NCBI RefSeq assembly: GCF_900172225.1
Contig: NZ_FWFO01000003.1
Coordinates: 1-64,000, forward strand
Direction: 5' to 3'
DNA: 64,000 bases
Origin: Falsiruegeria litorea R37
Lineage (GTDB): Bacteria; Pseudomonadota; Alphaproteobacteria; Rhodobacterales; Rhodobacteraceae
In this document: piece by piece, positions 55,934 to 58,322 of the stretch
Layout: every line of letters starts with the position of its first letter
How positions within the stretch are numbered: the stretch's first letter is position 1
Made by a program: the position numbers and the translations under genes
The notes under the pieces: generated by a model
Databases searched by the model: none
The model's input: only the letters and a program-made list of their open reading frames with translations
Told to the model about the DNA's origin: nothing

Positions 55934-57070
55934 ATGCTGCGCTCTGCCACCCATGATCCGTCCGTCGTCACGATCGAGTTTGACGATGGCACCACAACCC
56001 GCTTCCACGCCATCTGGCTGCGCGACAACGCGCTGGACCCCGAGACCCGCGCGCCGGGCAATGGGCAGCGGCTGATCACCATCGGGGACATCCCTGCCGA
56101 CATTGCAATCAGCGCGGCTGGCGTCGTGAATGGCGATCTGTCTGTGACCTTTGCGCCCGAAAACAAAACTGTCACATTTCCTGCCGATTGGTTGGCCGAA
56201 CACAGCTATGATCGCGCGCAATCCATCGCATTTGGTCGCATCGCGCCGGGCATCACGACCTGGGAGCGCGGCATCGATGCACCAAGTGGCGAGTGGGCCG
56301 CCGTTCAGTCGACCCGTGCCGCCAAACGCGATTGGCTGGCCGCAGTCGCTGAGTTTGGGTTCGCCAAACTGACCGGCGGCCCGACCGAGCCGGAATCGCT
56401 GCTGAAAGTTGCTGATCTGTTCGGTTACGTGCGCGAGACCAACTATGGCCCCTATTTTGAGGTGCGCACCGAGGTGAACCCGACCAACTTGGCTTACACA
56501 GGCCTTGGTCTGCAGGCGCACACCGACAACCCCTATCGCGATCCGGTTCCGACATTGCAGATTCTCTACTGCCTGGAGAACTCGGCCGAGGGCGGAGATT
56601 CGATCGTTGTTGATGGGTTCCGTGCCGCGGAAAAACTGCGCGATGAAAACCCCGAAGGGTTTGCCTTGCTTGCGGGTTATCCGGCGCGGTTCGAATACAA
56701 GGGGTCGGATGGCGTCTGCCTGCGTTCGCGCCGACCGATGATCGAACTGTCGCCTGATGGAGAACTGGTCGGCATCCGGTTCAACAATCGCTCCTCCGCG
56801 CCGATTGTCGATGTACCGTTCGACAAGATGGAAGCCTACTACGCTGCCTATCGTCAGTTGGGCGAGATCATCGACGATCGGGCCATGGGCGTATCGTTCA
56901 AGCTGGAACCGGGTGAAAGCTTTATCGTCGACAACACCCGTGTGCTGCATGCGCGTCTGGGGTATTCCGGCGCGGGCTCACGTTGGTTGCAGGGGTGCTA
57001 CGCCGACAAGGACGGGTTGCTGTCGACCTTGGCGGCGATGGAAATGGCGCAGCCGGAGGCGGCGGAATGA
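55934..57070 (+). CDS. tmpA: TmpA-like Fe(II)/2-oxoglutarate dioxygenase
   Basis: A 378-residue TauD/gamma-butyrobetaine-hydroxylase-like enzyme. The iron triad is His196, Asp198 (QAHTDNPY) and His339 (VLHARLGY), with a 2-oxoglutarate Arg shortly after. The N-terminal domain keeps [10 protein letters not shown] but lacks the zinc cysteines of true butyrobetaine hydroxylase. Together with the HD oxygenase gene that overlaps it, this matches TmpA, which hydroxylates 2-trimethylaminoethylphosphonate at C1 (shown for Leisingera, a relative). A butyrobetaine role is the alternative. The ATG at 55934 follows GGAGA; the frame upstream is unsupported. Confidence 0.82.
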
Positions 57071-57657
57071 AGCCCGATTTCTCGACATTGGACCGATCCA
57101 ACATCGTGGCCTTCATCGCCGACATCTTTGAACGGCGCGGTGGGGAGGAATATCTGGGCGAGCCAGTAACCATGGCCGAGCACATGCTGCAAGGCGCCAC
57201 CATTGCCGAACAGAATGGCCAACCCGAAGAGATCATCGTGGGTGCCCTGCTGCACGACATCGGCCACTTCACGTCCGAGTTTGGCACCTATCACCCCGAC
57301 GACACCGAAGACCGCCATCACGAGGATGCAGGCGCCGAGGTGCTGGAGCAGTTCTTTCCATCCGTGATCACCGACTGCTGCCGCTATCACGTGGCGGCCA
57401 AGCGGTATCTCTGCGCGACCAAGCCTGAATACTTCAACCGACTGTCTGCCGCTTCGGTCCATACGCTTGAACTGCAAGGCGGGCCGATGAGCGCTGATGA
57501 AGTTGCCGCGTTCGAGGCCAACCCGAACCTAAAAGAGATCATTCAGGTGCGATATCTGGACGAGGCTGGCAAACGGGCAGACATGGACACCCCAGATTTT
57601 ACCCATTTCGCCCCCATGGTGCAACGTATGGTCGACCGGCACCTGGGTGCCGCATGA
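57067..57657 (+). CDS. tmpB: TmpB-like HD-domain mixed-valent diiron oxygenase
   Basis: A 196-residue HD-domain protein. Metal ligands are His39, His63-Asp64 (LLHDIGH), His84 or His85 in DRHHEDAG, and His108 (CRYHVA). Tyr29 and Glu32 in [13 protein letters not shown] match the Tyr-x-x-Glu pair of PhnZ and TmpB, which cover the open iron site; plain HD hydrolases lack it. The family cleaves the carbon-phosphorus bond of the 1-hydroxylated phosphonate with oxygen, giving glycine betaine and phosphate. It overlaps tmpA by four bases. Such proteins are often misnamed phosphohydrolases. Confidence 0.85.
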
Positions 57658-58322
57658 GCGCGCCCGAGTACATATTCGAGGCGAGCTCGAAACCCTCACT
57701 GCCCTGGCATGAGGTGCCTTTGATCCGGGCCACGGACGCGTCGGTCAAAGGATACGGTTGCCTGGTCGATAACCCCGATACCTTTGAGATCGAAATCGTC
57801 CGTTGGCCACAGCAAGGCTGGCGTCCGATTGATGACGGCACGGGGGACGAGGCAGGCTGGGTCGAGGGCACGTTCAAATGCGACTGGCAGGGTGATGTGC
57901 TTTATGGCGAGAACGAAGCGGTCAAGGGCCACTATGTTCTGGGCTGGTCCGCGGATCCGCAGCACGCCAAGACCGAAACGCAGACCGCGGCGCGCGATCA
58001 GGTGTTGTTGTGGCACATGAATTATCACCCCGACGGGGGGCAGATGTTCTGGCCGCTAGACAACAAGCCGTTCATCGTGCCTGCCGCCCTAACGGGAGAC
58101 AACCTGACGCCGGACAAGGTGGTCGCGTTTTGGTGTGATGGCTCGCGCGGGCTGTATATTCATCCGGGCATCTGGCACGAGGGGATTTTCCCGGTCGAAG
58201 ACAGCCAGCGTTTTCTGGATCGCCAAGGCAAGGTGCACGCCCGCGTCAGCGCCGACATCGGCAAAGAGTTCGGCGTCTACCTGTCCTGCCCGCTGCGCGC
58301 GGACAAGGTGAAAGACCTGTGA
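57654..58322 (+). CDS. Ureidoglycolate-lyase-like cupin coupled to tmpAB
   Basis: A 222-residue protein of the AllA/ureidoglycolate lyase cupin fold. The central block is MNYHPDGGQMFWPLDNKPF, followed by the metal-site-like YIHPGIWHEGIFP. There is no other allantoin gene nearby, so a ureide role is unlikely. It overlaps tmpB by four bases and ends the operon, pointing to a role in the same phosphonate or quaternary-amine pathway, perhaps on an intermediate or side product. Function unproven. Confidence 0.75.
   Translation: MSAPEYIFEASSKPSLPWHEVPLIRATDASVKGYGCLVDNPDTFEIEIVRWPQQGWRPIDDGTGDEAGWVEGTFKCDWQGDVLYGENEAVKGHYVLGWSADPQHAKTETQTAARDQVLLWHMNYHPDGGQMFWPLDNKPFIVPAALTGDNLTPDKVVAFWCDGSRGLYIHPGIWHEGIFPVEDSQRFLDRQGKVHARVSADIGKEFGVYLSCPLRADKVKDL

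Follow-up and report, generated by a model that had tools for sequence, protein, structure and literature searches.

An AllA-like cupin as third gene of a predicted trimethylaminoethylphosphonate operon, probably a helper enzyme of phosphonate use

The DNA analyzed here, referred to below as the window, is a stretch of 64,000 nucleotides from Falsiruegeria litorea R37 (contig NZ_FWFO01000003.1). It contains an operon of three genes, tmpA, tmpB and a gene for an AllA-like cupin, next to a divergently oriented lysR regulator (Table 1). A preliminary description had the three genes overlapping by four bases each and divergent from lysR, and the open reading frames agree: both the tmpA/tmpB and the tmpB/cupin junctions are ATGA overlaps of 4 bases. 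We start tmpA at the ATG at 55934, which is preceded by AGGAGAG, and note a second in-frame ATG upstream at 55883. Reading of the neighboring proteins places a metal-type ABC transporter beyond lysR on the left, and a methyltransferase gene on the opposite strand to the right of the operon. The preliminary description had also remarked that the operon lacks a phosphonate transporter. None is indeed apparent beside it among the neighboring proteins in the window, but this is not puzzling by itself, because the genome has phnJ, in an apparent C-P lyase operon (assigned by reading) that also includes PhnC- and PhnE-like genes.

Table 1. Features of the predicted trimethylaminoethylphosphonate operon and its divergent regulator, in coordinates of the window.
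Feature	Coordinates	Strand	Basis
lysR regulator, divergent from operon	54965..55846	-	ORF; PF00126 + PF03466
Intergenic region lysR/tmpA, 87 bases, presumed promoter/operator (inferred role)	55847..55933	.	Sequence; AGGAGAG before tmpA ATG
tmpA, predicted 2-trimethylaminoethylphosphonate dioxygenase (Fe/2OG)	55934..57070	+	NF049936 597.3 bits; PDB 6npb E 6.5e-190
tmpB, predicted (R)-1-hydroxy-2-trimethylaminoethylphosphonate oxygenase (HD domain, mixed-valent di-iron)	57067..57657	+	NF049941 360.7 bits; PDB 6npa E 1e-110; Y29, E32 + six metal ligands kept
AllA-like cupin, 222 aa, third gene of the operon; inferred isomerase or other enzyme acting on 1-hydroxyphosphonates	57654..58322	+	PF04115 residues 122-188 only; pLDDT 87.9; context + co-occurrence

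The first two genes had been taken for tmpA and tmpB at first sight, and the model scores bear this out: TmpA passes NF049936 and TmpB passes NF049941, for which the NCBIfam cut-offs are 400 and 300 bits, and the best PDB matches are 6npb and 6npa respectively. TmpA also just passes the NCBIfam model for butyrobetaine dioxygenase, with 417 bits for a cut-off of 414.75. We reject a butyrobetaine hydroxylase as the product of the first gene, because TmpA is the better match both in NCBIfam (597 vs 417 bits) and in the PDB (634 bits for TmpA vs 171 for gamma-butyrobetaine dioxygenase); the true butyrobetaine hydroxylase that the preliminary description had kept in view is thus not what the model scores favor. 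HD oxygenases are characterized, in the available part of PMC8177086, by a YxxE loop together with an H...HD...H...H...D motif. TmpB has both the loop and these metal ligands: Y29, E32, H39, H63, D64, H85, H108 and D165 are among 69 positions with a conservation of 97% or more across 121 TmpB rows (the 125 aligned minus four tmpA-less rows, which keep all eight residues too); the first two are the Tyr29-x-x-Glu32 pair singled out from the sequence earlier. By close homology to the pair of a relative, we infer that the operon degrades trimethylaminoethylphosphonate (TMAEP). The relative's pair makes glycine betaine and phosphate from TMAEP, as the preliminary description had noted, and the available text of a review (PMC10574752) has TmpA and TmpB yielding these products together. 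Specifically, TmpA would add a hydroxyl to C1 of TMAEP, and TmpB would cleave the resulting (R)-1-hydroxy-TMAEP to glycine betaine and phosphate.

PF04115 (Ureidogly_lyase) is the sole Pfam match of the cupin, and it is not full-length, covering profile positions 73-139 of 162 and residues 122-188 of the 222 in the protein; a pfam02826 NAD-dependent dehydrogenase domain was not found in it. Against the ureidoglycolate lyase models of NCBIfam the best score is 46.9 bits vs a cut-off of 230; more generally the cupin stays at or below 47 bits where these models require at least 160, and it reaches no NCBIfam cut-off. A structure model made with 34 homologues as input (pLDDT 87.9, pTM 0.86) finds AllA structures as its best Foldseek matches (2bdr, 1xsr, 1xsq and 1yqc; E 4e-10 to 8e-8), with 2bdr on top at E 4e-10 and a TM-score by target of 0.72-0.74 for 1xsq, in line with the AllA-like cupin fold proposed at the outset. 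The same genome has another gene of AllA type, which is shorter (G000:C2:83640-84131, 163 residues) and adjoined by an apparent OHCU decarboxylase and a xanthine-type permease, all assigned by reading; among the neighboring proteins of the window cupin, likewise read, no ureide or purine genes are apparent. HPxGxQ and H...WH stretches are common to the two proteins. Because the model cut-offs are missed and a separate AllA-like gene is present in the genome, we reject that the cupin is AllA, and conclude that it is a distinct AllA-like family, other than ureidoglycolate lyase.

To describe conservation we used a close alignment set of 90 rows and a distant one of 20 rows that are 41-63% identical, omitting nine named loci (window duplicates and broken or truncated copies) as well as rows with stops, rows below 120 bits and exact duplicates. 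There are 46 positions that are near-invariant in both sets (at least 97% in the close and at least 95% in the distant set), including W51, P52, R57, T63, Y94, N123, Y124, H125, D127, Q130, W174, H175 and H195. Residues 51-70 have low model confidence although they are partly conserved, which suggests a mobile lid.

The gene order is widely kept. In a GTDB scan for the cupin, the best 80 of 142 loci were analyzed (L002-L081), spanning, as their records are titled, Rhodobacteraceae to Rhizobiaceae, Roseibium and a Marinobacterium. The order tmpA-tmpB-cupin is found in 63 of these 80, three of them with tmpA cut by a contig end, and tmpB-cupin in 4; the other 13 have no tmpB beside the cupin, two of them being close to a contig end. 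Among the 67 linked loci the tmpB-cupin junction is a 4-base overlap in 65 and a 1-base overlap in 2 (with duplicate loci included, the count is 73/75), and lysR is present with a match above 120 bits in 58. In 11 loci (titled Leisingera in 10 cases and a Rhodobacteraceae MAG in one) the TmpB shares 90-95% identity with the solved structure, and the cupin directly follows in all 11. TmpB rows without an adjacent cupin have tmpA beside them in 47/48 cases, duplicate loci included. The comparison of gene neighborhoods that the preliminary description had proposed thus supports a functional link between the cupin and tmpAB.

The association also holds where the genes are apart. In a family sample of 295 genomes, a strong cupin match was found in 18 and TmpB in 39. 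TmpB is present in 17 of the 18 cupin genomes, adjacent to the cupin in 8 and apart from it in 9, vs 39/295 in the sample (Fisher p 5e-16, with related genomes treated as independent and genome size outside the model, as in all tests below); with the 8 linked genomes removed it is still present in 9 of 10 (p 6e-9). A strong match means E <1e-40, a line drawn after inspecting the list, and the next cupin match in another genome stands at 1e-9, in the AllA-type range. For TmpB, G007 (121 bits) was dropped and G133 was kept at 299 bits vs the cut-off of 300. Two of the 18 genomes (G036 and G100) hold broken cupin copies only, the one in G100 lying beside tmpAB, and the copy in G087 is cut by a contig end.

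A class sample of 385 alphaproteobacteria gives the cupin (E <=1e-12) in 23 genomes and an oxygenase of the PhnZ/TmpB family (E <=1e-30) in 87, of which 15 exceed the TmpB cut-off and many are HD proteins of unproven substrate. A PhnZ/TmpB-family match is present in 21 of the 23 cupin genomes vs 87/385 (p 6e-13). The 23 belong to 13 families, and each family has at least one genome with both genes. The link persists when genomes with a TmpB above the cut-off are set aside (14/16 vs 72/370, p 3e-9). As a control, phnJ occurs in 10 of the 23 cupin genomes vs 65/385 (p 0.002), but this link is gone within the PhnZ genomes (10/21 vs 51/87, p 0.92), whereas the PhnZ link persists in phnJ-negative genomes (11/13 vs 36/320, p 5e-10). 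We therefore reject that the cupin is a mere marker of phosphonate users, since the phnJ link is the weaker one and vanishes within PhnZ genomes. Returning to the 13 GTDB cupins without tmpB beside them, 12 of the genomes were searched (all except that of L074): 8 have a TmpB over the cut-off elsewhere, one has a PhnZ-family match and three have none. Altogether five cupin genomes lack a TmpB/PhnZ match, namely G165 (the same record as L067), G460, G518 and those of L061 and L068.

In the reverse direction, the cupin is absent from 22 of the 39 TmpB genomes in the family sample, and for this reason it is accessory; the broken copies in G036 and G100 also show that it is dispensable in places. 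The suggestion in the preliminary description that the cupin may supply a missing step of the pathway is not supported in that form, because TmpA and TmpB already yield both products between them in the available text of PMC10574752.

In a few genomes tmpA appears to be lacking while tmpB and the cupin are kept. The operon of L066, L071, L076 and L078 is tmpB-cupin, with lysR directly before tmpB in L078. Their draft genomes have no match to the TmpA model at E 1e-60, and at E 1e-8 the sole match in the four, immediately before tmpB in the genome of L066, is a remnant of 52 residues that contains four stops; another family could supply the hydroxylase in these drafts. The YxxE pair and the six metal ligands are all present in their TmpB, and between pairs of these proteins dN is 0.05-0.24 and dS is 1.6 and 3.2 in two pairs and saturated in four, so that dN is far below dS wherever dS can be computed. 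On trees built after dropping near-identical rows (which left 74 of 125 rows for TmpB and 63 of 110 for the cupin), the tmpA-less label requires at least two changes both for TmpB and for the cupin, and more than one loss of tmpA is therefore likely. A further genome, G036 (estimated 100% complete), has tmpB, a broken cupin and no TmpA match at E 1e-8, from which we conclude that tmpB can stand alone.

Other settings of the cupin also involve phosphonates. In L129, from a 1.6-Mb genome, the cupin comes after phnW; this pair is flanked by a phnZ-like gene, which scores 202 bits on TIGR03276 (cut-off 214.6), and, on the opposite side, by a phosphonoacetaldehyde dehydrogenase gene and phnA. L140 contains a second cupin copy, interrupted by one stop, at a distance of some 3 kb from pbfA and 4 kb from phnW; the 14 kb read there yielded no relative of TmpA or TmpB, and the TmpB of this genome is on another contig. 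By BLAST, tmpA-tmpB-cupin is clustered with pbfA-, dehydrogenase-, phnA- and phnW-like genes in L059 and L065, and with phnW- and dehydrogenase-like genes in L058. L129 and L140 are the only two of 41 distinct stand-alone loci with phnW, pbfA or phnA near the cupin in the stretch read. In the plasmid collection, near full-length cupins occur only in 7 Paraburkholderia records (53-56% identity), and in L089, the one annotated record opened, no phosphonate gene is annotated within 10 kb of the cupin; the record of L088 is without annotation.

Two other genes were considered in passing. An enolase-superfamily gene follows tmpB in L173, L175, L181, L186, L189 and L191, where there is no strong cupin match; in L181 it begins some 800 bases after tmpB. 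It is not a strict replacement of the cupin, since both genes occur in L057 and in L053, a locus identical with L146. Similarly, a pfam02826-like gene that follows the cupin in L077 was rejected as a PbfF, because it stays below every NCBIfam cut-off and the other loci compared have nothing like it.

From linkage and co-occurrence, we hold with confidence that the cupin belongs to the phosphonate pathway. The 1-hydroxy-2-aminoethylphosphonate skeleton is the substrate common to TmpB, PhnZ and PbfA, and because the cupin accompanies all three, and stays with TmpB when tmpA is gone, it most simply acts on a 1-hydroxyphosphonate. Judged by these enzymes, the case that it acts on such a compound, be it TmpB's own substrate or its mirror image, stands in even balance. 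Isomerization is the likeliest single reaction of the cupin, though at less than even odds; like its presumed dependence on a metal, this draws on fold, chemistry and precedent. The precedent is PbfF, given in the available text of PMC12366243 as an NAD-dependent racemase of alphaproteobacteria that turns S-HAEP into R-HAEP for PbfA, and by analogy we propose the cupin as an (S)-to-(R) isomerase for TmpB. In the best explanation of the whole, which we put forward tentatively and with somewhat less than half of our belief, a TMAEP operon would include the cupin as an isomerase feeding TmpB. The cupin would then assist PhnZ-type oxidative phosphonate use as a metal-dependent accessory enzyme, converting an (S)-1-hydroxyphosphonate to the (R) form, perhaps by reversible expulsion of phosphite as the chemistry might allow, so that hydroxylated TMAEP from outside the cell could also be consumed; TmpB is assumed to reject the (S) form, from the reported stereospecificity of the pathway. 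A C1 proton is less easily removed beside a phosphonate than beside a carboxylate, so that a special mechanism would be needed for isomerization without NAD. Against this explanation we also count the TmpB genomes that do without the cupin, the five cupin genomes without a TmpB/PhnZ match, and the scarcity of phnW, pbfA or phnA near stand-alone cupins.

Alternatively, though this is unlikely, the cupin could be a factor for the di-iron oxygenase, which would protect, mature or reactivate TmpB or PhnZ, or remove a damaged off-pathway product. Such a role would fit the PhnZ/TmpB family being, distant members included, the closest statistical partner among the genes tested, the tmpB-cupin pairs without an intact tmpA, and the dispensability of the cupin in many TmpB genomes. 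However, the same 22 family genomes with TmpB manage without it, the cupin has conserved polar residues of its own, as would be expected of an enzyme, its copy with one stop in L140 lies near pbfA and phnW in a stretch without a TmpA or TmpB relative, and HD oxygenases reportedly have no need for an external reducing system (available part of PMC8177086).

FAD/GcvT genes are common in these bacteria, and a FAD/GcvT-type demethylase-like gene precedes the cupin in L037, L040 and L046, of the Phaeobacter group; near tmpB-cupin in L066 there is another, together with a gene for an MttB-like methyltransferase (368 bits, cut-off 525). These neighbors would suit a cupin acting after C-P cleavage, on glycine betaine or its demethylation products. 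But L037 and L046 fall into one group on the tree of the cupin, so that, given how common such genes are, the adjacency may be chance, and the cupin also occurs in phosphonate clusters without expected betaine products (L129 and L140). We regard a role after cleavage as quite unlikely.

AllA acts on a carbon that bears a hydroxyl and a leaving group, and the fold it shares with the cupin, as well as the HPxGxQ and H...WH stretches shared with the AllA-like protein of the genome, could be read in terms of a lyase that releases phosphite, converting an (S)-1-hydroxyphosphonate to phosphite and betaine aldehyde. We know of no phosphite-expelling lyase of this kind, and consider the idea improbable. 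In its favor, AllA frees urea from ureidoglycolate, an elimination from the carbon bearing the hydroxyl, and requires nickel (available part of PMC3793230), so that phosphite would be expelled much as urea is. It is more improbable again that the cupin is, as such a phosphite-expelling and metal-dependent lyase, a new kind of enzyme for C-P bond cleavage, which would handle the enantiomer that TmpB is assumed to reject and would link phosphonate use to phosphite. Finally, the Pfam name Ureidogly_lyase speaks for an ordinary ureidoglycolate lyase or else a passenger gene without relation to the pathway, but this is hardly credible in view of the scores of at most 47 bits where at least 160 are required, the separate AllA-like gene, and, for a passenger, the co-occurrence with TmpB without linkage.

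Phosphonates are an important marine source of phosphorus, and 1-hydroxyphosphonates are hardly charted. A conserved partner of PhnZ/TmpB that co-occurs even when unlinked points to an unrecognized reaction, and because some bacteria appear to keep tmpB and the cupin after loss of tmpA, it also suggests that hydroxylated TMAEP is a nutrient in its own right. The preliminary description had called the cupin uncharacterized, which agrees with our literature searches: by title and abstract they found no paper on it, the 2019 TmpAB paper, which may mention the gene, falling outside the search, and the word 'cupin' is absent from the available texts of PMC10574752, PMC12366243, PMC10590968, PMC8154272, PMC8177086 and PMC11203657. 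The cupin is apparently an undescribed third gene, and probably a helper enzyme of phosphonate use.

Among the closest known systems is that of Leisingera caerulea (PDB 6npb and 6npa), with the same two enzymes in the same order; its operon is called a two-gene operon in the available text of the 2023 review (PMC10574752), and L. caerulea itself lies outside the loci compared here. AllA (PF04115) shares the cupin fold and the two sequence stretches, but the window cupin has an extra N-terminal half, reaches no model cut-off and lacks apparent purine genes as neighbors. SqvB/SftX of sulfoglycolysis, which are DUF4867 proteins (PDB 9gyy and 9gyz), offer a parallel from C-S acid degradation, as AllA-like cupins in a pathway with no obvious missing step; isomerization of a sulfosugar was proposed for them and activity was not detected, according to the available part of PMC11968277. 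They are another family, coming next after AllA in the Foldseek search with the cupin model (E 2e-4, TM-score 0.40), with no sequence match to the cupin in the Pfam or PDB profile search. PbfF differs in its pfam02826 NAD fold, which is unrelated to the cupin, but has the role that we propose for the cupin, since in alphaproteobacteria it provides an enzyme of phosphonate degradation with the (R) enantiomer (available text of PMC12366243).

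Among the loci fetched around the cupin or tmpB in other genomes (L-numbers), an enolase-superfamily gene resembling mandelate racemase and galactonate dehydratase lies 3' of tmpB in L173, L175, L181, L186, L189 and L191; in L053 and L057 such a gene comes after the cupin. The enolase-superfamily genes at tmp loci are 75-82% identical to the L175 copy, and in some loci the junction with tmpB is a 4-base overlap. This gene is a further accessory of the tmp operon.

In L066 a 52-residue tmpA remnant with four stops lies immediately 5' of tmpB (G687:C173:23941-24096), and the tmpB-cupin pair behind it is intact. 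A genome with 100% estimated completeness (G036) keeps tmpB alone (L211, G036:C23); there a search with the TmpA model gave no match, and the cupin copy is broken and on a different contig from tmpB. Seven Paraburkholderia plasmid records carry a cupin at 53-56% identity, among them the megaplasmids L088 and L089, and the annotation of L089, the one annotated case examined, shows no phosphonate gene within 10 kb of it.

An alkaline-phosphatase-superfamily gene at tmp loci (see the table) might release TMAEP from a diester or lipid; the phosphodiesterase assignment comes from the L166 copy, the only one tested. In the window, the genes immediately to the left of lysR read as those of a metal-type ABC transporter.

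Positions of genes flanking tmp genes or the cupin
Feature	Locus and coordinates	Strand	Position or assignment
Alkaline-phosphatase-superfamily gene	L065 8670-9500		follows tmp genes
Alkaline-phosphatase-superfamily gene	L048, L049, L059, L072, L145		3' of cupin
Alkaline-phosphatase-superfamily gene	L166 5452-6279		3' of tmpB; PF01663 phosphodiesterase
Metal-type ABC transporter (two permeases, ATPase, binding protein)	window 50942-54894	minus	ORFs as read

Several loci have an FAD/GcvT-type demethylase-like gene, either in the vicinity of tmpAB or adjoining a stand-alone cupin (L169 6512-8965, L174, L037, L040, L046 and L066). Perhaps they demethylate the betaine product.
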